Notes under the pieces: generated by a model
What the model saw: the letters and a program-made list of their open reading frames with translations, nothing else
Told to the model about the DNA's origin: nothing
The model's database searches: none
Source: Mucilaginibacter myungsuensis
GTDB taxonomy: Bacteria > Bacteroidota > Bacteroidia > Sphingobacteriales > Sphingobacteriaceae
Length of the DNA stretch: 64,000 nt
NCBI RefSeq assembly: GCF_015222005.1
Contig: NZ_JADFFL010000005.1
Span: 186,001 to 250,000, forward strand
Direction of reading: 5' to 3'
Made by a program: the position numbers and the translations under genes
In this document: one piece after another, positions 2,498-49,196 of the stretch
How positions within the stretch are numbered: the stretch's first letter is position 1
Layout: each line of letters starts with the position of its first letter

Positions 2498-2553
2498 GGC
2501 AATGTATTACCTCAATATGGCAAAATGGAAATGTGATATGGTACAGACCTTTG
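2498..2553 (+). promoter_or_regulatory. Composite operator-promoter A (21-bp direct repeat + TTTG)
   Basis: GGCAA half-sites start at 2498 and 2519, 21 bp apart. A TTTG element starts at 2550, 31 bp after the second half-site, and the ATG of the NTF2-like gene is 28 bp further on. The -7 element reads GACCTTTG, weak against TAnnTTTG, which fits a promoter that needs an activator. The same layout recurs at 4151, 5850, 6695 and 8993. Confidence 0.75.
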
Positions 2554-2577
2554 TGTTAACAACAAAGCATAAATATC

Positions 2578-3054
2578 ATGGCTAACGAAAATAACAACAA
2601 CGAACTGACGCTAAAGATCTATAAAGCGTTCGCAAACAATGATTTGGCGCAATGGAATGGCGTGATCCACCCGGATGTGAAACTAAATAGCCCGGCCGGT
2701 CGCGGCTTAGCAGGAATAGAAACGCTTAAGTCATTTGCCGGAGCCTTTCACGCGGCTTTTCGTCCAACCGTCGACCTGATCGATCATTATGTCGCCGGTG
2801 ATAGAGGCCTGGTAACGGTCAACCTGCACTGGAAACACGATGGTGAGGAATTTTAAGGGATCAAGCCAAGCGGTCAGGGCGGTACTTCTGTAGAAACTTT
2901 CCTGCTACGTATTGAGAACGGTTTAGTGACCCATTGGGACACCGCCGATAACTCGCTTGATCTGGCCAACTACCTTTTCAGCGAAGGTTATGAACTGCCA
3001 AAAGAAGTAAAGCCTGCTGCGCTGATCGAGGGACCGAACATCCACGGCAGATAA
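2578..3054 (+). pseudogene. NTF2/SnoaL-like protein interrupted by an in-frame stop
   Basis: The reading frame starts with ATG at 2578 and encodes a nuclear-transport-factor-2-like (SnoaL) fold: helix IYKAFANNDLAQW, then VIHPDVKLNSPAGRGLAG and later strand GLVTVNLHWKHDGEEF. A TAA at 2854-2856 stops translation after 92 residues. The same frame then continues without another stop to 3054, giving the expected C-terminal strands (VETFLLRIENGLVTHWDTAD). The full product would be 158 residues, normal for the family. A single base change explains the break. Stop-codon readthrough or a sequencing error are the alternatives. It carries operator A and precedes the AraC gene. Confidence 0.8.
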
Positions 3055-3071
3055 GTTTAGGAAATGTAAAT

Positions 3072-3103
3072 ATTAACCTGCGAGCAAAATATTCAAGGTT
3101 AAT
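3072..3103. promoter_or_regulatory. Inverted repeat upstream of the AraC gene
   Basis: ATTAACCT at 3072-3079 and AGGTTAAT at 3096-3103 form a perfect 8-bp inverted repeat with a 16-nt spacer, ending 18 bp before the AraC start. It may be an operator controlling this regulator, or the weak terminator of the broken gene before it. Confidence 0.4.
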
Positions 3104-3121
3104 GCTTTAAATTTATGAATC

Positions 3122-4045
3122 ATGAAAAAGGAAAGAACAGCTACAGTAAACATGAGAACACTCTCGGATATCCACCGGGACCATGGTTTACCTGTTCCGG
3201 CACATCCGCTGATCAGCCTGATCGACTGGCCGAAACATCAGATACCCAAGAACAATTTCTCCGGCGCTGTTGTCTCGGGATTTTACCGCATTACCTTAAA
3301 TATTGGTATGAGTGGTAAGTCCAAATACGGGCAGGGACATTACGATTATTCTGAAGGCGGCATGACCTTCGTTGCACCTACGCAGGTCATCAGCCCTTGC
3401 GTTTACGATGTGGCAGATAACTGGTCGATGTATACGCTGCTGATCCATCCGGATTTTCTGTGGAATTACCCGGTCGCCAAAACCATCAAACAATACGGTT
3501 TTTTCTCGTACAATACGAATGAGGCACTCCACCTGTCCGATAAAGAAAGAAATACGATCATCCAAATTTTCCAGAATATAGAAGATGAACTGAACAGCCG
3601 GATCGACGAGGTCAGCCAGGATGTGGTCATCGCGCAGATCGAATTGTTGCTGAACTATGCGAACCGATTTTACAAGCGGCAGTTCATCACGAGAAAGGTT
3701 GTCAACAATGATCTGCTGCAAAAAATGGATGACATATTGGACGGTTACCTGAGCGGTGATAAAACTTTCAGTGACGGCATACCGACCGTACATTTCCTCG
3801 CCGAACAACTGAATGTTTCACCGAGCTATCTAAGCGACATGGTACGTTCGGTCACCGGGCAAAGTGCATTAGGGGTGATCCATCAGAAGATCATTGAAAA
3901 AGCCAAAGAAAAGCTTTCCACTACCATTATGACAGTAAGTGAAGTGGCCTACGAGTTGGGTTTCGGGCATCCCTCATCATTTACCAAACTGTTCAAAGCA
4001 AAAACGAACCTGTCGCCGCTGGAGTTCAGGAAATCGTTCAACTAA
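3122..4045 (+). CDS. AraC-family transcriptional regulator
   Basis: Protein of 307 residues with an N-terminal cupin-like sensing domain (HYDYSEGGMTFVAPTQ, about 75-90) and a C-terminal pair of helix-turn-helix motifs (VHFLAEQLNVSPSYLSDMV near 222-240 and TVSEVAYELGFGHPSSFTKL near 271-290, ending in TNLSPLEFRKSF). The family usually binds direct repeats spaced by two helical turns. Five such sites occur at the promoters around this gene, so I infer that it is their regulator, probably an activator. A close paralogue lies at 63002-63919 on the opposite strand (shared PAHPLI, YGQG-YDF/Y-EG, KQYGFFSY-NEALHLS-KER). Confidence 0.93.
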   Translation: MKKERTATVNMRTLSDIHRDHGLPVPAHPLISLIDWPKHQIPKNNFSGAVVSGFYRITLNIGMSGKSKYGQGHYDYSEGGMTFVAPTQVISPCVYDVADNWSMYTLLIHPDFLWNYPVAKTIKQYGFFSYNTNEALHLSDKERNTIIQIFQNIEDELNSRIDEVSQDVVIAQIELLLNYANRFYKRQFITRKVVNNDLLQKMDDILDGYLSGDKTFSDGIPTVHFLAEQLNVSPSYLSDMVRSVTGQSALGVIHQKIIEKAKEKLSTTIMTVSEVAYELGFGHPSSFTKLFKAKTNLSPLEFRKSFN

Positions 4046-4088
4046 AGATCAGCCTATTTTCAGACTAATCATAGATGCTTTGCATCGC

Positions 4089-4119
4089 AAGCCTTTGGGA
4101 TCAGGGATCTCAAAGGCTT
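4089..4119 (+). terminator. Hairpin after the AraC gene
   Basis: AAGCCTTTG (4089-4097) pairs with CAAAGGCTT (4111-4119), continued by a G-T pair and GATC/GATC, closing on a three-base loop. A short T-rich stretch follows. The core is nearly the same as the hairpin at 6645-6685, which also sits just before a copy of the composite operator. Confidence 0.6.
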
Positions 4120-4150
4120 TGTTATTTGAGAATTAGCGTAAAACTATTTC

Positions 4151-4205
4151 GGCAAAGCAATACCGCAATACGGCAAAATGCCGCTCAACATGTTTCTTCA
4201 ATTTG
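4151..4205 (+). promoter_or_regulatory. Composite operator-promoter B upstream of the MFS gene
   Basis: GGCAA half-sites start at 4151 and 4172, again 21 bp apart. TTTG is at 4202-4205, 30 bp after the second half-site. The TTG codon at 4203, a formally possible start for the exporter, lies inside this promoter element, so translation most likely begins at the ATG at 4233. Confidence 0.72.
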
Positions 4206-4232
4206 GCGTCCATAAATCAAAATGATGACCAA

Positions 4233-5810
4233 ATGATCACGAATGCTAAAAGTAACGCTCCTGAAGCTATACAATTACCAGATCCACGCGGGATCTATGT
4301 CCTGATCTCCGTTTGTTGCGTAGCCATTGCCACGCCTTTTTGTTTCACTGGCATCGCCGTAGGGCTGCCCACGATCAGCCGGGCACTTGGCGGCACGCCG
4401 CTACAACTGAACTGGGCGATCAACTCCTTTTTGCTGACCTTCGGCAGCACGCTGATGGCTGCCGGTGCACTCGCTGATAATTACGGACGTAAACGGCTGT
4501 TATTGTCAGGACTGGGCATATTTGGCTTATTCTCTATCTGCCTTTCGTTTTTCGTTGACATCGTGTCGTTCGATATCCTCCGGGCCATGCAGGGCCTTGG
4601 CGCGGCAGCCGCGTTCGCAGGGGGATTTGCTTCCCTGGCACAGGAGTTCGACGGCGCAGCCCGTTTACGGGCGTTCAGTATCGTCGGTACCAATTTTGGT
4701 ATCGGGCTGGCCTTCGGTCCGGTAGCAGCAGGCTGGCTGATCGCCCATTTCGGATGGCAAGCCATCTTTGTGCTGGTATTGCTGCTTTCAGCAACAGCGC
4801 TGCTGTTCGCAGCGGTTTTCATGCGGGAGTCACGTGATCCAGATGCTTCCGGCCTGGACTGGAAGGGCGCGATCAGTTTTACACTCGCGCTTTCTGCCTT
4901 CACTTTCGGTATCATTCAGGGGCCGGAAAGCGGCTGGTCGCATCCGCTTGTGATCTGTTTGCTGGCCGGTTCGGTTTTGCTGTTCGGCTTGTTCGTACTG
5001 GTCGAACGCGTGGCAAAACGCCCGATGCTTGACCTGTCCTTATTCCTGTTTCCCCGTTTCGTCGGTGCCCAACTGCTGGCGATCGCACCCTCATTTGCGT
5101 TCGTCGCCTTGCTGGTCATGCTTCCGGTACGTTTTGTCGGTATCCAGGGCATGTCCGAATTAGCCGCCGGGCAATTGATGGTCGCCTTATCCGCACCGTT
5201 CCTGATCCTTCCTATCATTGCGGGCTTGATGACCCGTTGGTTCGCCCCGGCGACCATCTGCGGGGCGGGCCTTGCTCTGTCAGCCGCAGGCTTATACTGG
5301 CTGAGCCGTTATACTATCGCTACTGCCCCGGTTGCACTAATTGGTCCCTTGCTGACCATCGGTGTCGGCATCAGCCTGCCATGGGGACTGATGGACGGCC
5401 TTGCCGTCAGCGTGGTACCCAAAGAACGTGCGGGAATGGCGACAGGTATTTTCAGTACCTCACGCGTCGCTGGTGAAGGTGTCGCACTGGCGATCGTCAC
5501 GGCACTGCTTTCTGCGCTGATCAGGACCAACCTGAGTCCGGTCGCAGGCAGTAAAGCCGGCGCTGTAGCGCAGCGCCTGGTCACCGGAGACCTTAAAGCG
5601 GCCTCTGAAATTGCAGCATCCGTTCAGAGGGAAACATTGCTGCAGGGCTATAATAACGGATTTACAGCCACGCTTTGGTTCCTCAGCGGCATCACTGCGC
5701 TAACTGCGCTGATCGTCTTTCTGTTCCTGGGCAGAAGCCATGAAATTGTAGACGACATTGAGCACGAAGCGGACGAAGCAGCGCATCACAACCCGCGACC
5801 CGGCGAATAA
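4233..5810 (+). CDS. MFS drug/metabolite exporter, DHA2 (EmrB/QacA) type
   Basis: Integral inner-membrane exporter, 525 residues from the ATG at 4233, with about 14 hydrophobic segments as expected for the proton-driven DHA2 family. Visible motifs are the loop 2-3 motif GALADNYGRKRLLLSG (motif A) and a repeated glycine-rich pattern in segment 5 (GLAFGPVAAGWLIAHFGW). The frame is open back to a TTG at 4203, but that codon overlaps the promoter element. Its promoter carries operator B, tying efflux to the neighbouring reductases. The substrate is unknown; toxic electrophiles or xenobiotics handled by the reductases are an inference. Confidence 0.92.
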   Translation: MITNAKSNAPEAIQLPDPRGIYVLISVCCVAIATPFCFTGIAVGLPTISRALGGTPLQLNWAINSFLLTFGSTLMAAGALADNYGRKRLLLSGLGIFGLFSICLSFFVDIVSFDILRAMQGLGAAAAFAGGFASLAQEFDGAARLRAFSIVGTNFGIGLAFGPVAAGWLIAHFGWQAIFVLVLLLSATALLFAAVFMRESRDPDASGLDWKGAISFTLALSAFTFGIIQGPESGWSHPLVICLLAGSVLLFGLFVLVERVAKRPMLDLSLFLFPRFVGAQLLAIAPSFAFVALLVMLPVRFVGIQGMSELAAGQLMVALSAPFLILPIIAGLMTRWFAPATICGAGLALSAAGLYWLSRYTIATAPVALIGPLLTIGVGISLPWGLMDGLAVSVVPKERAGMATGIFSTSRVAGEGVALAIVTALLSALIRTNLSPVAGSKAGAVAQRLVTGDLKAASEIAASVQRETLLQGYNNGFTATLWFLSGITALTALIVFLFLGRSHEIVDDIEHEADEAAHHNPRPGE

Positions 5811-5849
5811 ATGTCTTGATGACCATGTGATTACAAAACTGAAAAAAAT

Positions 5850-5905
5850 GGCAAAGTAATACCCAAAAATGGCAAAATCGGAAAAGTGATACTTCCTGAC
5901 CTTTG
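5850..5905 (+). promoter_or_regulatory. Composite operator-promoter C
   Basis: GGCAA half-sites start at 5850 and 5871 (21 bp apart). TTTG starts at 5902, 31 bp after the second. The reductase ATG is 26 bp beyond the TTTG start. The -7 element reads GACCTTTG, the same eight bases as at operator A. Confidence 0.75.
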
Positions 5906-5927
5906 ACATTACATAAAAAGAAAGAAA

Positions 5928-6626
5928 ATGAAAATCGGAATTTTGAATACCGGGAATATCGGCTCAAGGCTTGCAAGAGCCTGGGTTGCCGCCGGACACG
6001 AATTGGTTATCGCGAAAGACAGCGACTATTGGGACCTTGAGCCATTATTGAAAGAACTTGGAGCGAAGGCGCGCTACGGAACGATACGCGAAGCTGCGGA
6101 ATTCGGCGACGTATTGTTATTCTCTGTTTACTGGCCACGTGCTGAGGGCGTACTGGAAGCAGTGGGTAATGCAGCGGACGGAAAGATCGTGATCGAGACC
6201 ATGAACCCGCTGGGTGTTACCGAGGAATTTGTACACTACCATGATCTGGAGTTCATGAAGAACAGTTCGACCACTGAGTTTCTACAATCCAAGTTACCCA
6301 AAGCGAAAGTGGTCAAAGCATTCAACGTTCTGCCAGCGCCTACGCTTGAGCCGGCAGCCTGGGCGGATAACGCAATAAAGCCTAATATATTCTACGCAGG
6401 TGATGATGCGGAAGCGGGAAAGATCACCCGTGGCCTGATCGAAGATGCAGGTTTTACACCGCTGAATACCGGCGGGTTAAAGTCAGCTAGAGCCATTGAA
6501 CAGCTGGGTGTGCTCGTGCATCACGTTGCCAACCATGAATATGACGGCGATGCCACACTTGTTCGCCTAGGGGTCTCAGTGATCCAGGCTAACCCGGGAC
6601 CGATCTTCCGCGAAGGACTGGTATAA
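5928..6626 (+). CDS. NADP-binding oxidoreductase, F420/NADP-reductase-like fold
   Basis: Protein of 232 residues with an N-terminal Rossmann motif (MKIGILNTGNIGSRLARAW, glycines at about 4, 9 and 12) and the layout of the F420-dependent NADP oxidoreductase superfamily: VIETMNPLG after strand 5, KVVKAFNVLP around residue 125, and a C-terminal helical part. Bacteroidota generally lack F420, so the name reflects fold only; NADPH-dependent reduction of a small substrate is more likely. It is the first gene after operator C. A second, longer member of the family lies at 8146. Confidence 0.85.
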   Translation: MKIGILNTGNIGSRLARAWVAAGHELVIAKDSDYWDLEPLLKELGAKARYGTIREAAEFGDVLLFSVYWPRAEGVLEAVGNAADGKIVIETMNPLGVTEEFVHYHDLEFMKNSSTTEFLQSKLPKAKVVKAFNVLPAPTLEPAAWADNAIKPNIFYAGDDAEAGKITRGLIEDAGFTPLNTGGLKSARAIEQLGVLVHHVANHEYDGDATLVRLGVSVIQANPGPIFREGLV

Positions 6627-6644
6627 GCACGGCTAATAATTATC

Positions 6645-6685
6645 ATACGACAAAGCCTTTGAGTACCTCAAAGGCTTTGTCGTAT
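6645..6685. terminator. Perfect 19-bp hairpin with 3-base loop
   Basis: Arms 6645-6663 and 6667-6685 are perfectly complementary (core CAAAGCCTTTGAG) around the loop TAC. It follows the reductase gene and probably ends its transcript, although no clear T-tract follows. Its core matches the hairpin at 4089. Confidence 0.65.
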
Positions 6686-6694
6686 ACGGAACTT

Positions 6695-6750
6695 GGCAAT
6701 GAAAACCCTATAAACGGCAAAGAAATATCCGTCACCGTTCCCAAGATTTG
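6695..6750 (+). promoter_or_regulatory. Composite operator-promoter D, orphan
   Basis: Half-sites start at 6695 and 6716 (21 bp apart), with TTTG at 6747, 31 bp later. This is the exact geometry of copies A, C and E, but no plus-strand gene follows. The next 450 bp are covered by the minus-strand HxlR gene. It looks like a promoter whose gene was lost or displaced. Confidence 0.65.
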
Positions 6751-6819
6751 TATTCGTTGTCAGGATGGCGCAGATTCCGTCGTCTCGTCCCGATGATCTT
6801 ATTTGCTCAGCAAAAAGTG

Positions 6820-7197
6820 CTATACCTGAGCGACCGTTCTTTGAGCATTTTCCTGGCCTTCCCGCAACACGAAATCGCGATGTGTTTTGCCCCAATCCGA
6901 CAGGTCATATATGAGGTTTTGCAATGACCAACCATATTCTGTCAAGTTATATTTAACAGATACAGGTGTCGTATCCAAAACAGTGCGTTTAACGAGCTTA
7001 TTCTCCTCCAGGTCCTTCAGTTCTTTACTTAACTGCTTGTTGGAGATGCCGTGCAGGTCATTCAGGATCTCTGAAAACCGGCGATCATTGTAATAACACA
7101 TAGAGGAAATGATGGATATTTTCCATTTTCCGTTGAGTACATCCATTGCATCGTGGATGGCAAGGATGTCGCGTTTGTGGCAAATTTCTTCTGTCAT
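6820..7197 (-). CDS. HxlR-family transcriptional regulator
   Basis: Winged helix-turn-helix regulator of 125 residues. The family signature is clear: MDVLNGKWKISIISSM near the N-terminus, RRFSEILNDLHGISNKQLSKELKDLEENKLVKR in the recognition part, and LTEYGWSLQNLIYDLSDWG at the end. It is transcribed away from the SDR gene at 7301, and a 9-bp inverted repeat lies between them, the standard setting in which an HxlR protein controls its neighbour and itself. Some family members sense quinones or aldehydes through a cysteine. Cysteines are present here near the N-terminus (EICHKRD) and mid-protein (SSMCYY), but their role is unknown. Confidence 0.92.
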   Translation of the reverse strand: MTEEICHKRDILAIHDAMDVLNGKWKISIISSMCYYNDRRFSEILNDLHGISNKQLSKELKDLEENKLVKRTVLDTTPVSVKYNLTEYGWSLQNLIYDLSDWGKTHRDFVLREGQENAQRTVAQV

Positions 7198-7223
7198 AAG
7201 TTACTTGGTTACCTCAAATATAC

Positions 7224-7248
7224 CGTTACTTTAAGCTACAAAGTAACG
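7224..7248. promoter_or_regulatory. Inverted-repeat operator between HxlR and SDR genes
   Basis: CGTTACTTT (7224-7232) and AAAGTAACG (7240-7248) form a perfect 9-bp inverted repeat with a 7-nt spacer. It sits just upstream of the SDR promoter element TATGTTTG (7268-7275). GTTAC cores also recur in the tandem operator next to the second HxlR gene at 62045-62101. Confidence 0.65.
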
Positions 7249-7267
7249 AAAATAAATCGACTACCCC

Positions 7268-7275
7268 TATGTTTG
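7268..7275 (+). promoter_or_regulatory. Bacteroidota -7 element for the SDR gene
   Basis: TATGTTTG matches the TAnnTTTG consensus. It lies 26 bp before the SDR ATG. No good -33 TTG is present: that position is taken by the HxlR inverted repeat. Confidence 0.6.
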
Positions 7276-7300
7276 CATCACAAAATTAATATTTAAGAAA

Positions 7301-8044
7301 ATGAGTTTACAAAACAAAAATGTAGTAATAACAGGTGGCAGTCAGGGAATTGGCTTAGCTACCGCTAAACAATTTATTCAGCAAGGTGCCAATGTATGGA
7401 TCACCGGCAGAAATGCAGATAACCTTCAGAAAGCGGCTGATGAGATCGGCAGTGCAAAACTGAAAACAGTGGTATCGGACACCTCAAAATTCGAAGGTAT
7501 CGCTGCTTTGGAAAAAGCAGTAGCGGAAAGTGGTCAGAAGATTGACGTTCTTTTCCTGAACGCCGGTGTTGCGACCTTCGCGCCGATCGAGCATGTTACC
7601 GAAGCAGATTTTGACCTGCAATTCAACACCAACGTGAAAGGACATTTCTTTACGCTGCAAAAGCTGACCCCGCATTTAGCTGAGGGCGCATCGATCACTT
7701 TCACTTCTTCAGGTGTAGCTACAGGTTCTGCGATCGCCACCGCTGTTTATTCAGCCACCAAGGCTGCTTTAAACAAGATCGCAGACGTTGCCCTGAATGA
7801 GCTTGCCCCAAGAAAGATACGCGTGAATATCGTTAGTCCCGGCCCGATCGCAACACCTGGTCTGGATTCAGTAGCACCGCCGGAAGCGCAGGCGTATTTA
7901 GCGTCGACCACTGCTTTACAGCGTGTGGGTACTGCTGATGAGATCGCTGGTGCTGTTGTATTCCTGGCAAGCGACGCTGCCGGTTACATCAACGGTGCCG
8001 ATATCGCCATCGACGGTGGTTTTATCCAGTACCACCTGAAATAA
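7301..8044 (+). CDS. Short-chain dehydrogenase/reductase (SDR)
   Basis: Classical SDR of 247 residues, probably NADP(H)-dependent. Seen in order: cofactor motif TGGSQGIG (about 11-18), arginine after strand 2 (WITGRN, common in NADP users), LNAG near 86-89, catalytic serine in FTSSG, and catalytic YSATK at about 150-154. The C-terminal block RVGTADEIAGAVVFLASD and DGGF is complete. The substrate is not defined by the sequence. It is divergent from the HxlR gene and probably under its control. Confidence 0.93.
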   Translation: MSLQNKNVVITGGSQGIGLATAKQFIQQGANVWITGRNADNLQKAADEIGSAKLKTVVSDTSKFEGIAALEKAVAESGQKIDVLFLNAGVATFAPIEHVTEADFDLQFNTNVKGHFFTLQKLTPHLAEGASITFTSSGVATGSAIATAVYSATKAALNKIADVALNELAPRKIRVNIVSPGPIATPGLDSVAPPEAQAYLASTTALQRVGTADEIAGAVVFLASDAAGYINGADIAIDGGFIQYHLK

Positions 8045-8087
8045 GCAAAAGTATATCCTTAAATACCCCTTTTAACAAAGCGTAAAT

Positions 8088-8109
8088 GCCGGGGGCGAAT
8101 GCCTCCGGC
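8088..8109 (+). terminator. Hairpin after the SDR gene
   Basis: GCCGGGGGC (8088-8096) pairs with GCCTCCGGC (8101-8109), with one G-T pair and a 4-base loop. It lies 43 bp after the SDR stop and is followed by TTACTTATT. Confidence 0.6.
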
Positions 8110-8145
8110 TTACTTATTCCTGTCATCCTATAAATTACATATCTT

Positions 8146-8973
8146 ATGTCACAGGCAAAAAACACTTCAGAGAACAGTTATCAGATCAGCACCGTCGGCA
8201 TCATCGGCACCGGTCAGATCGGCACCACATTAGCACGCTTGTCCGTACGAGCCGGGATCAATGTGGTTTTGAGCAATTCCCGCGGGCCGGAAAGCCTCCG
8301 GTCACTTATTGCAGAATTAGGTCCGCTGGCCAAAGCCGGCAGCATCAGCGAAGCGATCGAAGCAGCCGACATTGTGGTCGCAACGATCCCCTTGCCCAAT
8401 TACCAGTCACTACCAGCCGGTGAACTTGCCGGGAAGACGGTGATCGACACCATGAATTATTACCCAATAGGTTACAACATCGAAGATCTGGACAATAATA
8501 AATTCACTTCAAGTGAACTGGTACAGCAGCACCTGATCGGTGCAGAGGTCGTCAAGGCATTCAATAATATTCCGTATCCGCATATTGCCCTGCATGCAAG
8601 ACCTCAAAACGATCCCGGACGCACGACCATTCCGATCGCCGGCGATGATGAGGAAGCGAAGGGCGCTGTTGAGCAATTCATCAATACGATCGGTTATGAC
8701 ACCGTAGATGCCGGTCCCCTTGCAGAAAGCTGGCGTTTCGAGCCAATGACCCCGATCTATTACTGGCCATACGCACCGGTCGTTCCGGAAGGCACCCCTG
8801 ATGCAGAAGCCCGCAGGATCTATCAGACCACATTCGTTGACCCTTTGAGACCGGCTGCTGCGCAAACTTTGCTTAAAGAGACCGATCGCAAGGTCCCTGT
8901 AGGCGGCCGCCTGGATATACTTCCTCCGATCCATTTGAAGTTGTATGAAGAATTCACCAAAGGAAGATATTAA
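8146..8973 (+). CDS. NADP-binding reductase, F420/NADP-reductase-like (longer form)
   Basis: Protein of 275 residues with a Rossmann motif after a 15-residue lead (GIIGTGQIGTTLARL), then VVLSNSRGPESL, a signature of NADPH recognition by arginine and serine in this superfamily, VVATIPLPNY, VIDTMNYYP and VVKAFNNIPYPHI. The C-terminus is about 40 residues longer than that of the reductase at 5928. It follows the SDR gene by about 100 bp across a hairpin, has no composite operator and no obvious promoter, so I cannot say whether it is transcribed with the SDR. Function is a reductase of unknown substrate. Confidence 0.85.
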   Translation: MSQAKNTSENSYQISTVGIIGTGQIGTTLARLSVRAGINVVLSNSRGPESLRSLIAELGPLAKAGSISEAIEAADIVVATIPLPNYQSLPAGELAGKTVIDTMNYYPIGYNIEDLDNNKFTSSELVQQHLIGAEVVKAFNNIPYPHIALHARPQNDPGRTTIPIAGDDEEAKGAVEQFINTIGYDTVDAGPLAESWRFEPMTPIYYWPYAPVVPEGTPDAEARRIYQTTFVDPLRPAAAQTLLKETDRKVPVGGRLDILPPIHLKLYEEFTKGRY

Positions 8974-8992
8974 AAGCAAGGATACACGATCC

Positions 8993-9048
8993 GGCAAAGC
9001 ATTCCCGCAAAACGGCAAAATCAGACTTAGGGGCTTTCCTGAGATTTG
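8993..9048 (+). promoter_or_regulatory. Composite operator-promoter E
   Basis: GGCAA half-sites start at 8993 and 9014 (21 bp apart), with TTTG at 9045 (31 bp later). The SDR ATG is at 9071, 26 bp beyond, the same offset as copy C. Confidence 0.75.
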
Positions 9049-9070: not shown

Positions 9071-9871
9071 ATGGCACAAGAGAATGAATTAAAGAATGCC
9101 ACTACCGGAAAAGCCCTGGCTGGCAAAACAGCATTGGTTACCGGCGGTGCAAGAGGTATAGGAAGAGCTATTGTTGAACGATTTGCCGCCGAAGGCGCAA
9201 CCGTTGCATTTACATATAATGCAAGTAAATCAGCTGCTGACGAAGTTGTCGCAGCGATTGAGCAAGCCGGAGGAACAGCTATCGCACTAAAGGCAGATCT
9301 TGTTGATGCGGCAAGTATTCCGGCTTTATTTGAGCAACTGGATGCTGAACTGGCAAACTGGAACGGTAGCAAAAAACTGGATATCCTGGTGAACAATGCC
9401 GGCAATTCCGGCTGGGGCGGCTTGCCGGATGCTACACCCGACAGCTTTGACACGATGTTCGCGGTACATGCCCGTGCGCCATTTTTTATGATCCAGTCCG
9501 CACAGAGCCGTTTATCTGACGGTGGGCGCATCATTAACATTTCGTCAGGCCTAGCGACACGCCCGATGCCAATGGTTCCGATCTACTCTATGGCCAAAGC
9601 CGCTATCAATACCCTTACCCATGCATTGGCCATGGAACTTGGTAAACGCGGGATCACTGTCAATGCTGTTGCACCAGGCTGGACCAAAACGGACATGAAT
9701 GCTGCAGTACGGGAGAATGCAGATATGGTAAAATCTATTGAAGCCGATACCTCACTGGGCCGTTTCGGAGAAACTTCGGACATCGCAGATGTTGTTGCCT
9801 TCCTTGCCTCACATGAAGGCCGTTGGGTAACCGCACAAGTGATCGAAGCAAGCGGCGGCTACAGACTTTGA
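9071..9871 (+). CDS. Short-chain dehydrogenase/reductase (SDR), FabG-like
   Basis: Classical SDR of 266 residues. An 18-residue lead precedes TGGARGIGRAIVERF. NNAGNSGWGG follows at about 110-119, then catalytic serine in INISSGLA and YSMAK at about 172-176, VNAVAPGWTKTDMN after strand 6, and the C-terminal VIEASGGYRL. Downstream of operator E, hence probably in the same regulon as the MFS exporter and the first reductase. The substrate is unknown; a carbonyl compound is expected from the family. Confidence 0.92.
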   Translation: MAQENELKNATTGKALAGKTALVTGGARGIGRAIVERFAAEGATVAFTYNASKSAADEVVAAIEQAGGTAIALKADLVDAASIPALFEQLDAELANWNGSKKLDILVNNAGNSGWGGLPDATPDSFDTMFAVHARAPFFMIQSAQSRLSDGGRIINISSGLATRPMPMVPIYSMAKAAINTLTHALAMELGKRGITVNAVAPGWTKTDMNAAVRENADMVKSIEADTSLGRFGETSDIADVVAFLASHEGRWVTAQVIEASGGYRL

Positions 9872-11553: not shown

Positions 11554-12630
11554 TTAGTTTTTAATAAGATTTAACGCATCTGCCCCCTGACGGGCAAAGT
11601 TCCCGCAAAGGTCAAAAGCGACCTGCGCGCGCTGTTTAGCGGTGCCATCCATAATGGATCTGAATTTGGCGTCACCATCCTTAAAGCTCCGCACATTCTG
11701 GTAGTAGCCCGTAATGGCATTGTAAGCGCCAAATAAAGTGCCTGCTGTAGTTTCCATCTGCTGGGTCGGGTTACCCATCGCGTAGGCAAAGGTATTGTCC
11801 ACGATGTTGGTATAAGCGGTCGATAGCTTGTCGGTCAAACCCAATTCGAGATTGGTCAGCACTTCCTTGTTCGGTGCCATAGCGACCTGTATCAGCTTTT
11901 TCACCTGCTTGTCGGTGATGCGCACGGTTGTCCAGTAATTGAACAACTCTTCCAGTTCCTGCGCCATGAGATCAGAAATACCCATGAGCGTATGCGCCTG
12001 CTTCAAACGGTCGTTCGCCGAAGCCGTGTGTCTGATCTTGATGCCGTTGGAATGGTTACGCATAGCTGCATTCAGCGTGTTGTTACACACGATCCGGGTC
12101 GGCGTAAAGGCTGCTGTGATGCTCCCAAAGCCGTCATGCGAAGTGGTCAGGAACAGGTATTGCTCGATCAGATCCGCTTTACCCACTTTGATGTATTCGG
12201 GCAGTTTAGCGGTAATGAATATGCGTTCACCCTTACCCAACGCTCCGGCGGTCTCATATTTGATCCCGCTGCCATCACCCACAATGGCATCAAAGAACTG
12301 GAAGGCATCCGCGTTCTGTACCACTGCGTAATCTTTGCCCACCACGCCCAAAACCGCATCGTTATCCGTGCGTACGGTCGCGTAAAAGTCAGGTACTTCG
12401 ACAGACGGATAAGCCAGATCGCTATCCACGTTGTCCAGCCCTAAAGGTGCGCCATTGGTGAACAGGGGCCGCTTCTCTACAAAATAATCCAAACCCGCGT
12501 ACCTGATCGCTTCGGCGCTGGTGGGGTGATCCTGTACGATCTGCCCCAATCCATGCCATGCCTTTTCCTTCACGCTAAAGAAGCTGTGTTGCTCTGTCTG
12601 CCCATTATAAAAAATGTTGTGTGCCATCAT
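11554..12630 (-). CDS. DUF932 (phage/plasmid-like, TIGR03299-type) protein
   Basis: Protein of 358 residues matching the DUF932 family by its typical beginning (AHNIFYNGQTEQHSFFSVKE, KAWHGLGQ) and by VVGKDYAVVQNADAFQFFD, TSHDGFGSITAAFTPTRIVCNNTLNAA. The family is common on plasmids, phages and conjugative elements and resembles proteins that may act on single-stranded or recombining DNA, but its biochemistry is not settled. It sits 35 bp downstream of ssb, which supports a DNA-processing or transfer-establishment role. Confidence 0.88.
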   Translation of the reverse strand: MMAHNIFYNGQTEQHSFFSVKEKAWHGLGQIVQDHPTSAEAIRYAGLDYFVEKRPLFTNGAPLGLDNVDSDLAYPSVEVPDFYATVRTDNDAVLGVVGKDYAVVQNADAFQFFDAIVGDGSGIKYETAGALGKGERIFITAKLPEYIKVGKADLIEQYLFLTTSHDGFGSITAAFTPTRIVCNNTLNAAMRNHSNGIKIRHTASANDRLKQAHTLMGISDLMAQELEELFNYWTTVRITDKQVKKLIQVAMAPNKEVLTNLELGLTDKLSTAYTNIVDNTFAYAMGNPTQQMETTAGTLFGAYNAITGYYQNVRSFKDGDAKFRSIMDGTAKQRAQVAFDLCGNFARQGADALNLIKN

Positions 12631-12665
12631 CTTAAAATTTAAATGTTACTGAATGTTGAATTGCT

Positions 12666-13028
12666 TTAAGCCGCTTGGTTCTTCCGGTTTCTTCTGTTCT
12701 TTGCCGTTGCCGGTTCTGCCTTACGGGATGCGCCCAATAAGGTGATCTCGTTGGTGTGAAAGTTCAGGCTCGCCATCGGCTCCCCGTCACGGCTCACCCA
12801 CGGTCTTGCGCTGATGTGCCCGAACAACTGCACCAATAAGCCTTTGGTCAGATAAGGCGCAACGGCATCCGAACGCCAATAAGCGCAATCAATAAATGTG
12901 GTGTCCTCTCTTTGCTCACCGCCCGACACATACCTGCGGTTCACCGCTACCCTGAAATTGGTTACTGTCCTGTCTCCCTCGACGTTCCTTACGGCAGCAT
13001 CTGCTACCAATCTTCCTGTAATTTCCAT
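12666..13028 (-). CDS. ssb: Single-stranded DNA-binding protein
   Basis: OB-fold SSB of 120 residues: MEITGRLVADAAVRNVEGDRTV, then FRVAVNRRY, FIDCAYWRSDAVAPYLTKGLLVQLFGHISARPW and a short basic tail (KNRRNRKNQAA). Chromosomal SSBs end in an acidic tip that recruits partners; this one ends in basic residues instead, typical of small element-encoded SSBs. First gene of the minus-strand module with DUF932. Protects transferred single strands during conjugation by inference. Confidence 0.92.
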   Translation of the reverse strand: MEITGRLVADAAVRNVEGDRTVTNFRVAVNRRYVSGGEQREDTTFIDCAYWRSDAVAPYLTKGLLVQLFGHISARPWVSRDGEPMASLNFHTNEITLLGASRKAEPATAKNRRNRKNQAA

Positions 13029-13494: not shown

Positions 13495-13527
13495 TAGATT
13501 TGAGTTTCCTCAGTAGTGCTGAGGAAA
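13495..13527 (+). promoter_or_regulatory. Promoter element and hairpin of the sacsin-like operon
   Basis: TAGATTTG at 13495-13502 matches TAnnTTTG. Immediately after it, TTTCCTCAG (13505-13513) and CTGAGGAAA (13519-13527) form a perfect 9-bp hairpin around the loop TAGTG, which would sit at the very 5' end of the transcript, 28 bp before the chosen start. It may stabilise the RNA or bind a repressor. Confidence 0.5.
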
Positions 13528-13554
13528 GTATTAAATCCTCACCTTACTTCATTA

Positions 13555-16500
13555 ATGAAAAAAGAATTTATAGATGCTCTAGCTGTAAAGCGGTCGGTAT
13601 ATTTAGACGAAGAACAGTCGGAGATTATGGCCAACCTTCTGGATACTGTGTCCTCCGATATTTATTCTCAAAACATTCGCTTTGTATTTGAACTTATCCA
13701 AAATGCCGATGATGCAGGAAATGAAAGCGGAAACGAAGTGAGATTTGACTTTCTCGACGATGCCCTGATCGTTTCCCATAATGGCAATCCTTTTGAAGAG
13801 AAAGATATCAGTTCGCTGGCTAGTGCCGGTAAAAGTCAAAAAGAAGACGACCCCAATGCAACAGGATACAAGGGGATCGGATTTAAATCCGTTTTCGGCC
13901 GCTCAAAGCGAGTGTCCATTATTTCTGATGGTTATCGATTCCGTTTTGATAAACACGTTCATGGCAAACGCACGCCTTGGCAGATCGTTCCTGTCTGGAC
14001 CGAAGAGCGAGATCTATCTGCACCGATCACTTCGGTATTAAAAGATGAATACGCTGTAAGTACCGTCATCGAAATGAAGAACGCCAAAGACCTTCAGGCG
14101 GATCTCGATGAAGTTTTGGCGGACGGGCGTATCCTGCTTTTCCTGAGGAAAGTAAATAAAATCTCTGTTGCGCTTGGTGGAGAAATCAGTTGTGTTCTGG
14201 AAAAATCACTTATTGAAGAGCATTGTTCTTATAAGAAAATTGCTTTGAAGAAAGACGGCGAACCACTAAGTACCTGGTTAGTTCAAACATTTTCCAATAT
14301 CGCTGTGCCGGAAGCCCTACAACAAAAACTGGCAGAGGACGAGGATACCCCTCCCAAATTGAAGAAAGCTAAAAAAACGGAGCTTTCATTGGCGGTCAGT
14401 TTAGATGATCAACAAATTATGCCAGTTCAGCAGAGCCAAAGCCTGCTTTTTACCTATTTACCTACCAAGGTTTCGTCTTTTCAATTCCCGTTTCTCGTCA
14501 ATAGTAATTTTTTGACCAATGCACCGCGCGAAGCTTTACATGAAGACCATCTGTGGAACGAATGGTTAATGTATCTAACTGCCGAAAAATTGATCCTGTG
14601 GCTGGCCGCTTGGTCGAACACTGACTTTAAGTTTCAAATCCTAAAAATATTACCATCTGTGCAAGCAGGTAGCGCCGGCTTGAAAGGTCGTTTTAATAAC
14701 GAGTTGTTACGGCAGATAAGGGAAACGGCCTTTATACCTAACGCCGGTGTTAAACTTAAACGAACGTCTGAACTGATCGTCGATAAGACAGGATTATCTC
14801 GCCTTGAATTTATAGATAGGCAAGCATTTATAGATTTTATCAACCGTGAAAAAGGCACTGGATACGCGATCGATAGTTTTGTGCATGCAGATGTGAGCGA
14901 TGTTGATACATTGATCAATTATGGGGCGCTATCTTATGATATTGAACACCTACAAGATTTTTTCCTTTCCGAAGAATTTAAGAACAGTCACAAAACATCG
15001 GATAATGATAAACTTATCGAGTATTTTTTTGATAAGGCGAACGGATCTGAGGGTGATGAATGGCAAGAAAGACTTGCTAAAATCCCCTTTATTTTTTCGG
15101 CTGAAGGGAATTTGAAAGCACCTAAGGCCATTTGCTTTCCGGGTATAAGTTATCAAACGGAATTCGGAGACGGTGTGACTCTTATTCACGAAGAGGTATA
15201 CAAAGTTATTCAGGAAAAGCGGCCGGTAATACAATGGCTCGAAAGCCTTGGTGTCAAGGAGCCATCAGAAATGGCTTATATTGAGAACGAGATCATTGGA
15301 AATATAACCAATTGCTCTACACCTCAGAATCATTTACAACTGATCAGGTTTTTGTTTCGAAGGTTCAAAGATGGCGTCTTGACAAAAGATCATTTAGATC
15401 AGATGCAGGATATCAAGATCAAAACCACCAAAGTGAATTTGGAATCTGCCAAGTTGTGTTTTCTGTCTGATTTTTATCAGCCAGAATTAAGATTGGAAAC
15501 TGTAAACGATGCCTGTCATTTTGTGTCGCCGGAATATTGGCAACAAGGAGATCTCACCAGCGAATGGAAAACTTTCCTTATAAAATTGGGGGTGGCAGAG
15601 AAGATCGAGCAGACATGCATGAATTTAGATAGAGCAGAAGCCCGAACTAAATATAATGCATTCGTTAGTTTCTTTGATTCCAATAGCACTTTGAGGTATG
15701 TATCCCGGGCGGGTTGGGTACATTATAATACTATTACCAATTATAAATTACAGTCTTATAGTTTGCTGGAGTTTGCAACGGAATACGCCTTTTCAAAGGT
15801 TTTCTGGGACCAAATTTTCAAAACAAATTTTCGCCGACAGTCATCCGACGAAGGAGAAGCTAATTATTATGATACCCCGTATCTGAAGGATAATTTCTTT
15901 GAATGGTCCCTGGCGGAAATGGCGCTCATTCCGACCAGGATGAAAACCTGTGAAAAGGCTTCGGATGTTTTCATCAATGACCAGGAAATAATAGAAATTT
16001 CCGGTGCTTATTTACCCGTGTTAGATCATGAACGCCCTTTAAGCGATGACTGGAGAAAGTTATTGAAACTCAAAACCAGTTTGTCCCTGAGTGACTATTT
16101 ACACATTCTAGAGCAGATGGCGGTCGCTCATGACCGAACACCTATAACGCGCGCGGATCAACGTCGGCTCGGTTTGATCTACAATAAGTTGGGGGAAATG
16201 ATGCCTAACCTATCGCCGGAAAATGAAGTGCTTATCAAAGATTGGGCAACGAAGAATCGTTTACCTTCTACCAGTTTAAATTTCGAAAACGTCGATACGT
16301 TAAAATTAGTTAGCATAGCAAGCTTCAGCACCTCTACCGACACCTTGAAAGTCATGCTACTTCCCGAAAATTCGAGGCCTAATTTACCGGAATTTAAAAA
16401 GTTGATCGAATTGCTCGGTATACCAGAGATCAATAGTTATGTGCCAGATTTTGGAACGGAAGATCCAAAGCATAATGTTGCATTAAAGAATAAACTATTG

Positions 16501-17544
16501 AGCATACTTCCATACTTAGCGCTAGTCGTTGCAAAAAAGCAGTATGAGGACTTTTTGGAAACTTTTAAAAAGATGCACAAGAACCTTGTTCAAACAGATT
16601 TCTATGTTGTTCAAAGTGCGAGGCTTACCTTCCAGAACGGACAGGAAACATTTTCCGGGCCTGAGTTGAACACTTATAAAGACCAGTTTAAACTCTACTT
16701 CAAAGGAGATTGGCAGAAACCGTTGGTTCTATATTCGTTGCTACCTGAGTTGTTAACCATTTTCCAAGTCAGGGGATTCAGTGAAGAATTACGTCTTCTT
16801 CTCGCCATCGAGCGTGCTGACATTGAAGAGCATTTCATTACACTGGGCCTAGATATTAATTCTACGGCATTTATATCTGCGGTACAGTCCATTCAGCCAG
16901 AGCTGGCGGAAGAAGTGATTGAACCTGCTGAAGAGGCGTATTCTGGGTTTCAAAGTCCACCTTTTGCACATTCCACCTCGTCACATACAGGAACTCGCAA
17001 TGATCAAAATGATGTTTATGATGTGGATGAGCGAGAAGAATTCGAAACGCCTTTCACGCCAACCAGTGATGCGACCGATACAACGGTCCCAACCGTAATT
17101 AGGAACCGCTCTTATGACCAAGGCATCCAGATACAAACTGCGACCGTGGCCAATTACAGGACGATGGAAGATCAAAAATCCAGAGATGAGGTGGGACGTT
17201 GGAGTGAGGAAAAGGTTTACACCATTTTGTCGAAAGAGGGTCGTTTTGCAGACATTGTCTGGGTGAATAAGGATGTGGAATCTAAATTACCTTATGACAT
17301 ATCGTATTCGGAAAATGGTCACAAGCGCTACATAGATGTTAAAGGAACACCATCACCGGTTAAAGAGATAGTTTACCTATCCGGCCCGGAATGGGCATTT
17401 ATGTTCGCAACAGGTGGTGATTATTCAATATATCGCGTCTTTAACGCAGGGAAAGAAGATGCAATCATCGAAATAATTAATAACCCGGCTAATTTAATTT
17501 TAACAGATAAGATCAGGCCAGAAAAAGTCAGCCTCCAATTATAG
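13555..17544 (+). CDS. Sacsin-like GHKL ATPase with C-terminal DUF3883 domain
   Basis: Very large protein, 1329 residues from ATG 13555 (the frame is open to 13516, but the upstream ATG lies close behind the hairpin). The first 170 residues are a sacsin/Hsp90-type ATP-binding fold: RFVFELIQNADDAG (N-box with catalytic E and D), LIVSHNGNPF, then SSLASAGKSQK and GYKGIGFKSVFG (glycine lid). A long middle part has no named domain. A low-complexity linker follows (about 1120-1200), and the last 120 residues are DUF3883-like: GRWSEEKVY, IVWVNKDVESKLPYDI, IDVKGT. DUF3883 often accompanies defence helicases and nucleases. Four bp separate it from the next gene. Anti-phage function is inferred. Confidence 0.85.
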   Translation: MKKEFIDALAVKRSVYLDEEQSEIMANLLDTVSSDIYSQNIRFVFELIQNADDAGNESGNEVRFDFLDDALIVSHNGNPFEEKDISSLASAGKSQKEDDPNATGYKGIGFKSVFGRSKRVSIISDGYRFRFDKHVHGKRTPWQIVPVWTEERDLSAPITSVLKDEYAVSTVIEMKNAKDLQADLDEVLADGRILLFLRKVNKISVALGGEISCVLEKSLIEEHCSYKKIALKKDGEPLSTWLVQTFSNIAVPEALQQKLAEDEDTPPKLKKAKKTELSLAVSLDDQQIMPVQQSQSLLFTYLPTKVSSFQFPFLVNSNFLTNAPREALHEDHLWNEWLMYLTAEKLILWLAAWSNTDFKFQILKILPSVQAGSAGLKGRFNNELLRQIRETAFIPNAGVKLKRTSELIVDKTGLSRLEFIDRQAFIDFINREKGTGYAIDSFVHADVSDVDTLINYGALSYDIEHLQDFFLSEEFKNSHKTSDNDKLIEYFFDKANGSEGDEWQERLAKIPFIFSAEGNLKAPKAICFPGISYQTEFGDGVTLIHEEVYKVIQEKRPVIQWLESLGVKEPSEMAYIENEIIGNITNCSTPQNHLQLIRFLFRRFKDGVLTKDHLDQMQDIKIKTTKVNLESAKLCFLSDFYQPELRLETVNDACHFVSPEYWQQGDLTSEWKTFLIKLGVAEKIEQTCMNLDRAEARTKYNAFVSFFDSNSTLRYVSRAGWVHYNTITNYKLQSYSLLEFATEYAFSKVFWDQIFKTNFRRQSSDEGEANYYDTPYLKDNFFEWSLAEMALIPTRMKTCEKASDVFINDQEIIEISGAYLPVLDHERPLSDDWRKLLKLKTSLSLSDYLHILEQMAVAHDRTPITRADQRRLGLIYNKLGEMMPNLSPENEVLIKDWATKNRLPSTSLNFENVDTLKLVSIASFSTSTDTLKVMLLPENSRPNLPEFKKLIELLGIPEINSYVPDFGTEDPKHNVALKNKLLSILPYLALVVAKKQYEDFLETFKKMHKNLVQTDFYVVQSARLTFQNGQETFSGPELNTYKDQFKLYFKGDWQKPLVLYSLLPELLTIFQVRGFSEELRLLLAIERADIEEHFITLGLDINSTAFISAVQSIQPELAEEVIEPAEEAYSGFQSPPFAHSTSSHTGTRNDQNDVYDVDEREEFETPFTPTSDATDTTVPTVIRNRSYDQGIQIQTATVANYRTMEDQKSRDEVGRWSEEKVYTILSKEGRFADIVWVNKDVESKLPYDISYSENGHKRYIDVKGTPSPVKEIVYLSGPEWAFMFATGGDYSIYRVFNAGKEDAIIEIINNPANLILTDKIRPEKVSLQL

Positions 17545-17548
17545 CACC

Positions 17549-18544
17549 ATGTTACGCATACTCAATGACAGCGGACAAATCCTTAGAGCGCATAAAAAGT
17601 TGTTAAGGCAATTTTTGCCGTTATTTAATGAAGAGATCGAGTGTACCATCGGTTATCACGGCGGTAGTTTTCAAGAAACCGTTCAATATTCTGATTCATT
17701 AGATCTTTGGTTTGCGACCTGGGAATATGAAGGAGTTATCAAGAATCTATTCGGACTCGGCAGGCCAAATGAGAATACGAGTAACTCGATGACCGGGCAA
17801 ATCAATATACCAATTGAGCAAACCGACCGATCCGTTGCCGGTGCTTTAGCCAAATCGGAAGCCGGTCAAGTATTGTTATTACACAGAGGAAATATCGGTG
17901 GTGGTAAACTTGGTATAGGTAAGTCTATGTTTTTGGAAAATTTTCGTGGCGATCAGGAGGATGTTGATGAATTGGGTAAGGTCACTCGTTTTTGTGTCAT
18001 TGGCGAAATAGGTTCAACATTACTTCCAATTCAAATCAAAAACTTCATGGTCGAAATCCGCCGCATCAAAGATCTCGTCACTTTTCCGGATGAATTCAAT
18101 GCGAATCCCTTTCGGTTCAATGATGAAAAAGGCGGAACCTACACGCTTGGTGACCTGACCCGGGGCGGTCAGGCGAACAGAACGCATTATATTATTGTGA
18201 ACGCGTTATCTGGTCTACTGGAAAAGCAAGGTTTTAAAGTCGGAAATGATCGTAATCGAGATCTTTTTATTCATGATCTCAAAAGAATCAAAGCCTTGTT
18301 CGAGATCAAATCATGTCTTAGTACACATAATCTTTACAGCGCTGTGGGGCAACTATTGATTTACAGCATTCCCATTTCTACCCCTGTACTTTTGATCTTG
18401 ATCCTTCCAGAAAAACTTGAGCCTTCTGTCGAAAAAAAATTGAAACAATACAGTATTAATGTCCTGTATATTTCTATTTCGCCGGACAATGAACCGATTT
18501 TCCCTATGAGAAAATTATCTAATCTATTAAACCAATTAAAATAG
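17549..18544 (+). CDS. Unknown protein with possible PD-(D/E)XK nuclease core, partner of the sacsin-like ATPase
   Basis: Protein of 331 residues starting 4 bp after the sacsin-like gene, so almost certainly co-translated. The C-terminal third has a nuclease-like order: VNALSGLLEKQGFKVGNDRN, then RDLFIHDLKRIKALFEIKS (a D followed by EIK, as in PD-(D/E)XK folds), then LYSAVGQLLIYS, the helix with glutamine common in this superfamily, and strand PVLLILILPE. The N-terminal half has no recognised domain. I infer an effector nuclease commanded by the ATPase. The family is not one I can name. Confidence 0.7.
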   Translation: MLRILNDSGQILRAHKKLLRQFLPLFNEEIECTIGYHGGSFQETVQYSDSLDLWFATWEYEGVIKNLFGLGRPNENTSNSMTGQINIPIEQTDRSVAGALAKSEAGQVLLLHRGNIGGGKLGIGKSMFLENFRGDQEDVDELGKVTRFCVIGEIGSTLLPIQIKNFMVEIRRIKDLVTFPDEFNANPFRFNDEKGGTYTLGDLTRGGQANRTHYIIVNALSGLLEKQGFKVGNDRNRDLFIHDLKRIKALFEIKSCLSTHNLYSAVGQLLIYSIPISTPVLLILILPEKLEPSVEKKLKQYSINVLYISISPDNEPIFPMRKLSNLLNQLK

Positions 18545-18703
18545 CACCCTCAAAAAGCAAGATTTCAAACTAAAACCAGCACATTACACTAATGCTAACG
18601 GAAACGGCCTTTCTAAAGAAATAAAAAAATTCGTCAGCAATGGAAAAAGTTTTAAAGGAAACTGAAGACATGATCGCATTACATTGATATCTCGTCTTTT
18701 TTG

Positions 18704-19024
18704 ATGAATAAGTTTCCGGGAAAACTGAATGGTACTGCCTCGATAATTTCAGACAAAACTGCTTGGGAAGGCTCGCAGCGGATGCAAACTTTGTTGTACG
18801 CTGATATAAGGCCGGAGATCGAGATTAATGTCAAAATGGACTAGTTGAACGCCCCGCGATGGAAGAAAATAGGCTGGAGCGTAATTGATGGCTGAGAATA
18901 CTGCATTTTCGTCGATGATTGCGCTGAGAAACTGGCGGAACTGTGTGGAAAGCTAAGCGATTCCTATTATCGAAGTATTGGCGATTATCCTATTTATGCA
19001 TATCTTCACCTTTATTATGCTTAA
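18704..19024 (+). pseudogene. Degenerate reading frame with two in-frame stops
   Basis: A single frame runs from ATG 18704 to the TAA at 19022-19024, broken by TAG at 18842 and TGA at 18893-18895. The pieces read MNKFPGKLNGTASIISDKTA, then LNAPRWKKIGWSVIDG, then EYCIFVDDCAEKLAELCGKL and SDSYYRSIGDYPIYAYLHL, protein-like throughout. I do not recognise the family. Its end overlaps the start of the next gene by a few bases. The 160 bp before it hold nothing I can support. It marks decay or gene replacement inside the defence island. Confidence 0.5.
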
Positions 19025-19727
19025 ACTTTATCTCAAACAATTGCGTGAGCGATTTATCGCTGCTCTCGAAGGTTTTTCAGATTTCGAGATGAGTGAGGGC
19101 AATCCGTTTCGGTTAAAAATAGCAGACCGCAACTTTATTGTTTTTGTAAAAAGTCTATCTCCAGGCTATTTTAAAGGAAGCCCTGACGTTTCCAGAATTC
19201 AACTCCCAATGCTCCGCTTGGCCGATGGCGACCGTCGCTCTACATTTATCGCATTAGGCTATGATGAAAATAACAATTCATTTGTTGCCTGGAACCCAGA
19301 AAAACTTGAAAAGCGATTAAATGTACGCGGAAATGTTTCCTTGTATTCGAGAATATCTATTCAAAAATTACCTCAACCGGAAGATTTCAATGTAGGCATT
19401 TTGAATTCGGGAGAAAGGTTTCTGGCATTTCATTCCAGCTTACTTCCGGTTTTTTTTAAAAAATATCAAGAGCTTTTTAAAGAGGAAGTTCCCTTTTTCG
19501 TGCCCTTTGTCGAAAAGAACTCCATCCAGAAGCAGGCCATTCTTACCAAAGTTACCGACCCAAGCGTGCTTTCTGAAATCATGCCTATGCTTCGTGAAAC
19601 AAGAATTTTAGATACCGCAGCCAAGTGTTTTGACCACTATAGCGCCTTATACCCAGCGATGTCTTTTAGTGACTGGCTGGCTATCGCAAAAAACATGCAT
19701 GCGCAACTTATCAGCGATCAAAATTAG
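19017..19727 (+). CDS. Unknown protein, probable restriction component convergent with the R-M operon
   Basis: Protein of 236 residues from ATG 19017 (MLKLYLKQL; the frame is open to 18978). The N-terminal half is beta-rich with KIADRNFIVFVKSLSPGYFKG, STFIALGYDENNNSFVAWNP and VSLYSRISIQ, resembling DNA-recognition domains found in type II restriction enzymes. The C-terminal half is helical (LTKVTDPSVLSEIMPMLRET). Its stop overlaps the stop of the convergent DUF4420 gene (TTAG at 19724-19727), suggesting it belongs to the same block. I cannot identify a catalytic motif, so it may be a specificity or accessory subunit. Confidence 0.6.
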   Translation: MLKLYLKQLRERFIAALEGFSDFEMSEGNPFRLKIADRNFIVFVKSLSPGYFKGSPDVSRIQLPMLRLADGDRRSTFIALGYDENNNSFVAWNPEKLEKRLNVRGNVSLYSRISIQKLPQPEDFNVGILNSGERFLAFHSSLLPVFFKKYQELFKEEVPFFVPFVEKNSIQKQAILTKVTDPSVLSEIMPMLRETRILDTAAKCFDHYSALYPAMSFSDWLAIAKNMHAQLISDQN

Positions 19728-25699: not shown

Positions 25700-25736
25700 G
25701 TACAAACCGTTGGTGACGATATAATGAGCGCTTCAA

Positions 25737-25757
25737 TATACTAATATATTTAGCAAT
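25737..25757. promoter_or_regulatory. Palindrome TTRCTAA-N5-TTAGYAA upstream of the methyltransferase operon
   Basis: ATACTAA-TATAT-TTAGCAA, core 25740-25754. The same pattern with the same spacing occurs at 55106-55124 (SRAP gene) and 57300-57318 (UmuD-like gene). Six of seven positions of the left arm and all seven of the right arm fit the consensus. It lies between the methyltransferase operon and the divergent DUF3883 gene. Confidence 0.5.
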
Positions 25758-28229: not shown

Positions 28230-28262
28230 TAATTAGCGACCTAAATCAACTATCTTTATATC

Positions 28263-45121: not shown

Positions 45122-45133
45122 AATCAATGCAGT

Positions 45134-47360: not shown

Positions 47361-47371
47361 AGCCCACCAGC

Positions 47372-48574: not shown

Positions 48575-48579
48575 AAGCT

Positions 48580-49194: not shown

Positions 49195-49196
49195 CA

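Follow-up and report, generated by a model that had tools for sequence, protein, structure and literature searches.

Five direct-repeat operators predict a local AraC-family regulon in Mucilaginibacter myungsuensis

The 64,000-nucleotide stretch of M. myungsuensis DNA analysed here (the window) contains five composite operators that most probably mark genes switched on by a nearby AraC-family regulator, encoded at 3122-4045. In the best explanation, to which we assign a probability of about 0.88, a dimer of this regulator would occupy direct-repeat operators and activate, from a class II position, a small detoxification-like regulon. The parts of the cluster are as follows.

2498-2553, + strand: operator 1, half-sites at 2498 and 2519, -7 TTTG at 2550-2553; upstream of the NTF2-like gene and AraC
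2578-3054, + strand: NTF2/SnoaL-like gene, a family name taken from the initial reading of the sequence and not from a profile
3122-4045, + strand: AraC-family regulator, 307 amino acids; H283 and S285 lie in its HTH2 recognition helix, GFGHPSSFTK
4151-4205, + strand: operator 2, offset 30 and not 31; upstream of the MFS exporter
4224-5810, + strand: EmrB/DHA2-like MFS exporter (Pfam/NCBIfam; score under the subfamily cut-off)
5850-5905, + strand: operator 3; upstream of the NAD(P)-binding reductase
5928-6626, + strand: NAD(P)-binding reductase (Pfam F420_oxidored)
6695-6750, + strand: operator 4, sequence-competent and lineage-specific; faces the 3' end of the HxlR gene
6820-7197, - strand: HxlR-family regulator (profile match), divergent from the SDR gene at 7301
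7301-8044, + strand: SDR oxidoreductase a, not directly preceded by an AraC operator
8146-8973, + strand: F420_oxidored-type NAD(P)-binding oxidoreductase, likewise not directly preceded by an AraC operator
8993-9048, + strand: operator 5; upstream of SDR b
9071-9871, + strand: SDR oxidoreductase b (profile match)

Gene families were assigned with Pfam and NCBIfam (AraC, MFS, two F420_oxidored proteins, HxlR, two SDRs and TetR). Further regulators are encoded nearby, namely a TetR protein at 10069 and a LytTR/histidine kinase pair at 1-1507. The NTF2-like gene is broken by an in-frame TAA at 2854-2856; the copy in a congener (L184) is intact, with Tyr at that position.

Layout and rarity of the operators

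Pairs of GGCAA half-sites (GGCAA-N16-GGCAA) start at 2498, 4151, 5850, 6695 and 8993, all on the + strand, exactly where the original prediction had placed them. The predicted distance from the start of the second half-site to the start of a TTTG element was likewise recovered, at 31 bp for four sites and 30 bp for the one at 4151, and the base identity said to extend into the spacer is real, a single extended pattern (GGCAA-W-G-N-A-W-W-M-CC-N3-A-W-A-N-GGCAAA) matching five of five sites. The half-site itself needed amendment, being larger than GGCAA and including an upstream A-box (CTCAAT or CC.CAA). The TTTG element represents the Bacteroidota -7 box, for which the consensus TAnnTTTG is already known (PMC7366714). 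The second GGCAA lies 30-31 bp 5' of this box, at the -33/-35 position, in the layout of a class II promoter, and the stretch between the two contains no further TTTG at any of the five sites, which leaves the promoters devoid of a -33 box. The distance between half-sites is 21 bp at every site of the window and in AraC homologues, as in a two-turn direct-repeat operator, and TTTG precedes the ATG by about 22-24 bp at sites 1, 3 and 5.

The bare GGCAA-N16-GGCAA pair has 78 matches in the 5.09-Mb genome and its reversed control has 26, which makes the bare pattern weak when taken by itself. Addition of a TTTG 24-26 bp further on left six genomic matches, five of them within the window, and the extended pattern with up to three mismatches returned exactly the five window sites genome-wide, with no control matches. 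The full motif is thus confined to the cluster; random scatter through the genome, which the original prediction had named as refuting it, was not seen. In a scan of 395 genomes of the phylum with the extended motif, no exact match was found outside the source genome, and other genomes had at most one or two matches each, with one or two mismatches. A weight matrix built solely from sites of other genomes placed the five window sites at the top, with 28-52 bits, the next site scoring 10.6. When repeated pentamers with the 21/31 spacing were sought de novo, mainly low-value repeats came up outside the window and Dyadobacter soli.

Orthologous clusters and the fourth site

Comparison with homologous clusters, also suggested at the outset, revealed the same operators before orthologous genes in the congener, in two cluster copies from another genus of the family (L185 and L186) and in D. 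soli (L042), which belongs to a different family. The congener has the whole cluster, an AraC protein 94% identical and four operators, each with the 21- and 31-bp distances, including a counterpart of operator 1 (at 7375) and an ortholog of operator 2 whose offset is 31. Across these four promoters all 56 motif letters are identical between the two species (half-site cores, 40/40; TTTG, 16/16) and A-box 2 agrees at 31 of 36 positions, against 225 of 408 (55%) for the remaining bases around them. L185 and L186 have AraC proteins with 70% identity and four such operators, and D. soli (AraC, 83%) has three, upstream of AraC itself (at 75 bp), the reductase and SDR b. The regulon originally proposed, comprising the NTF2-like protein, exporter, reductase and SDR, is supported for sites 1, 2, 3 and 5, which lie immediately 5' of the NTF2-like gene (with AraC), the MFS gene, the reductase gene and SDR b, and does not extend to the site at 6695, which is unconserved and has no clear target.

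Site 4 falls outside the conserved regulon as delimited by these comparisons. It is missing from the congener's promoters and was undetected in D. soli; there is no + strand gene close 3' of it and no clear + strand ORF before 7301. Its score under the matrix from other genomes (28.3 bits, with an offset of 31) places it among the top five, and it is therefore probably bound, though lineage-specific. A search with the segment 6627-6819 in its own genome and 59 relatives found no second copy other than a terminator-like inverted repeat. It is possible, if doubtful, that site 4 is a working promoter for an antisense HxlR transcript, by which AraC would silence HxlR and indirectly raise expression of the SDR gene at 7301. 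The high score and canonical offset would fit such a role, as would the fact that the site points toward the HxlR 3' end and lacks a clear + strand ORF ahead of it; its absence from L184 and the failure to detect it in D. soli weigh against it, and the region 3' of the site may instead be what is left of a gene since lost. This possibility concerns site 4 alone and is compatible with activation of the other genes by AraC.

The AraC protein and related operons with other half-site letters

The C-terminal part of the AraC protein matched Pfam HTH_18 (E 2.1e-20) and HTH_AraC (2.2e-13), and its two AraC-type HTH motifs were confirmed and aligned with those of AraC (PDB 2k9s) and SoxS (7w5w). The N-terminal domain scored 20.6 bits for AraC_binding, just under the cut-off of 21.1. 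Operator 1 is followed by the NTF2-like gene and, after 67 bp, by AraC, which as the gene 3' of the NTF2-like gene is probably a member of its own regulon. Among 396 genomes of the class, the helix GFGHPSSFTK was found in no AraC gene beyond that of the window, and among 150 genomes of the genus only in the AraC proteins of the window and L184. A plasmid search retrieved no close relatives, the best being 60% identical.

On 80 more distant AraC loci, the GGCAA matrix identified real sites in D. soli only, a result that led to the GGCTAC/GGATAC operators. AraC homologues with 48-66% identity (L043-L121) are mostly encoded in a tandem SDR-AraC operon, in which the half-site is GGCTAC or GGATAC and the operator, located 5' of the SDR gene, reads ctCatTTtGGmTACAA..a.cC..aaTT.gGmTAC, then GA.CTTTG. 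In these 80 loci, a core-core distance of 21 occurred in 30 on the coding strand versus three on the opposite strand, and core-TTTG distances of 31 and 52 in 45 versus five and in 52 versus two, respectively. A composite scoring above 15 bits was present upstream of 71 of the 80 AraC homologues of the first set and of 114 of 129 AraC genes in the enlarged set, with a single opposite-strand match in each. The 21/31-bp layout is thus found in about 90% of the sampled upstream regions versus about 1% on the opposite strand. As the composite matrix was trained on some of the scored loci, the opposite strand serves as the control that sets the limit on chance; loci outside the training set (L156-L189) scored equally high. 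The sampled loci are mostly from Bacteroidota, with two from metagenome bins bearing proteobacterial names (L050 and L118). A paralogous AraC gene of the same genome (63002-63967), whose SDR gene lies upstream past the window edge, has GGTTAC half-sites, again at 21 and 31 bp. Two regulators in one genome thus share one layout with two half-site spellings.

The half-site letters vary with residues of the regulator. Base 3 of the half-site (C or A) follows residue 283, with A at 24 of 27 loci for Y283 and at two of 44 for H283 (Fisher p 1.6e-13, kinship being ignored), the H283 exceptions being the AGATAC/GGATAC sites of L111 and L120. Base 4 is A with every S285 protein and T with nearly every Q285 protein. 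A screen of the variable columns of the protein ranked 283 first for base 3, with 285 and 241 tied for base 4; residues 283 and 285 are in the recognition helix of the second HTH and 241 is in HTH1. The SoxS alignment pairs residue 285 with the latter of the two Gln residues in the recognition-helix sequence SQQT, a stretch that belongs to a base-contacting region in MarA/SoxS. On a tree built from the N-terminal part alone, residue 283 changed four times and base 3 four to eight times, which gave two or three well-supported independent pairs (four to six over all branches), nearly always with the same direction or no difference, and the association of residue 285 with base 4 had a single origin. 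With so few independent events both associations are phylogenetically weak and the correction is without power; they are suggestive, not proof. A further locus (L190) encodes an AraC protein, 65% identical and with S285, that joins the window clade at 99% support in a tree built without the DNA-binding domain. Its combination of an SDR-AraC arrangement with GGCAA-type half-sites and S285 suggests that the half-site switch preceded the gain of several target promoters. Together, the association of the layout with AraC genes across the phylum and that of HTH2 residues with operator bases support AraC 3122 as the predicted binder, in agreement with the AraC-type operator first proposed.

Mode of regulation and significance

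From these associations we infer that an AraC dimer binds each operator, with each half-site consisting of a B-box (GGCAAA or GGCAAT) on the promoter side and an A-box that approximates CTCAAT or CC.CAA. The B-box of the second half-site, 31 bp 5' of the -7 TTTG, would take the place of the missing -33 element, from where AraC would most likely recruit RNA polymerase in class II activation once its N-terminal domain senses a ligand. The exporter, the reductase and SDR b would be targets, as would the NTF2-like gene together with AraC, which would amount to positive autoregulation. This set suggests, as our reading of its biochemical role, detoxification of a small organic compound. The GGCAA-reading regulator would derive from the Bacteroidota-wide SDR-AraC operon family, in which GGCTAC/GGATAC is read, with the layout kept and the change to GGCAA coinciding with a Gln285Ser replacement in the recognition helix of HTH2. 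Counted against this explanation were the 30-bp offset of site 2, the lack of an obvious gene at site 4, the N-terminal domain score just under its cut-off and, for the residue/base association, the few independent events, the H283 exceptions and the equal performance of residue 241 for base 4.

AraC-family proteins can both repress and activate, and a second half-site at the place of the -33 element could also be compatible with AraC mainly repressing, or repressing without ligand and activating with it. This is improbable, because with no TTTG at -33 the promoters look activator-dependent and the position fits class II activation. Even less probable is binding of the repeats by another regulator, be it HxlR (6820), TetR (10069) or the LytTR/histidine kinase pair (1-1507). 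All are encoded close by, and the D. soli, L184, L185 and L186 clusters likewise include an HxlR gene. HxlR and TetR proteins, however, normally bind dyads and not direct repeats, TetR was not found in the related clusters, the 21/31 layout also occurs at AraC loci devoid of HxlR or TetR, and it is residues of AraC HTH2 that follow the variable bases most closely; binding to direct repeats is moreover mostly a property of the AraC family (PMC9723621). Least probable of all, recent spread of one promoter segment or mobile repeat could be suspected from five similar copies in 6.5 kb and a lineage-specific site 4, but the promoters differ beyond the operator letters, the four sites shared with L184 have fully identical cores in surroundings of 55% identity, the genome holds no other copies and the same layout recurs elsewhere with different half-site letters.

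Activation by AraC from direct repeats would place the system near known examples. At araI1-I2 of E. coli AraC, a pair of directly repeated half-sites is spaced by about 21 bp, with the half-site nearer the promoter in the -35 region, and the regulator of the window shares with this system the AraC fold in HTH1/HTH2 (2k9s), this half-site spacing and the -33/-35 position in class II manner. It differs in sequence, in its Bacteroidota -7 promoter (TAnnTTTG; PMC7366714) and in having no arabinose genes. In Bacteroides, the consulted passages describe sites of AraC-type hybrid two-component systems (HTCS) with repeats averaging 21 bp apart (PMC3878776; 2013) and sites of the AraC-family rhamnose regulator RhaR with 21-bp periodicity (PMC3870299; 2013). 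Direct repeats of this period are therefore already known for AraC-type regulators in Bacteroides and the kind of system is not new. The window differs from both in its one-component regulator (N-terminus AraC_binding-like, under the cut-off), its reductase/exporter cluster and its half-site letters, and the fixed, phylum-wide 31 bp to the -7 box, measured here, is not given in those passages of PMC3878776 and PMC3870299. With the SDR-AraC operons the window shares operator layout and position; it differs in having GGCAA sites and several targets, the operons typically having one operator each. In the open-licence literature, we found no description of the SDR-linked AraC family or of its 31-bp distance.

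A motif spotted by eye has thus led to a regulon prediction with comparative backing, and the operator layout is common to more than 100 related loci despite differing half-site letters. Its fixed geometry may provide promoter parts for Bacteroidota, in which described regulated promoters are few. By a modest margin over even odds, we favor the view that Bacteroidota harbor a large, undescribed SDR-linked AraC family with a rigid 21/31 grammar, whose B-box specificity would evolve through residues 283 (base 3) and 285 (base 4) and in one clade of which the switch to GGCAA would have preceded expansion from operon to local regulon. Such a family would form a natural recognition-code series, and the pairing of two recognition-helix residues with two operator bases would make an AraC-family recognition code testable by point mutants.

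The gene ahead of AraC and the segment around operator 4

The NTF2-like gene (2578-3054) is interrupted by an in-frame TAA at 2854-2856, and AraC lies downstream of it within the same predicted transcript. Sequence comparison with the orthologous cluster of a congener (L184) placed a Tyr at this position, and the TAA stems either from a nonsense mutation or from an error in sequencing. The segment at 6627-6819, which comprises a terminator-like inverted repeat and the lineage-specific operator 4, is missing in the same congener.

The HxlR/SDR promoter and related clusters

GTTAC/AGTTAC words are repeated at 7198-7300, in the promoter between the divergent HxlR and SDR genes, which is likely the HxlR operator. 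The Dyadobacter soli counterpart (L042, 12242-12347) was similar to this promoter; an SDR gene of that cluster (SDR a, ~12560-12890) carries an apparent frameshift. In G073, a genome from another genus of the family, the AraC/SDR/HxlR cluster occurs in two copies (L185 and L186) ~135 kb apart, with identical AraC HTH regions.

Other genes in the window and the second AraC

11554-13028, DUF932 and SSB
13516-29764, defence-like island: TmtA-like protein, Z1-domain protein (MzaC/type II helicase-like), HATPase, C5 DNA methylase, PDC-S36, HNH protein, KwaB-like protein
42674-52684, genes of a conjugative transposon (TraG, TraM); IS110-type transposase
62172-63967 and L153, second AraC of the main AraC's subfamily, with its own SDR upstream

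GCAAAG/CAAAG words repeated at spacings of about 9 and 21 bp in three Flavobacterium loci (L087, L091 and L119) are unrelated to the AraC operators. The second AraC has a GGTTAC-N15-GGTTAC operator with the layout of the main AraC operators, namely half-sites 21 bp apart and the second starting 31 bp before the -7 TTTG.
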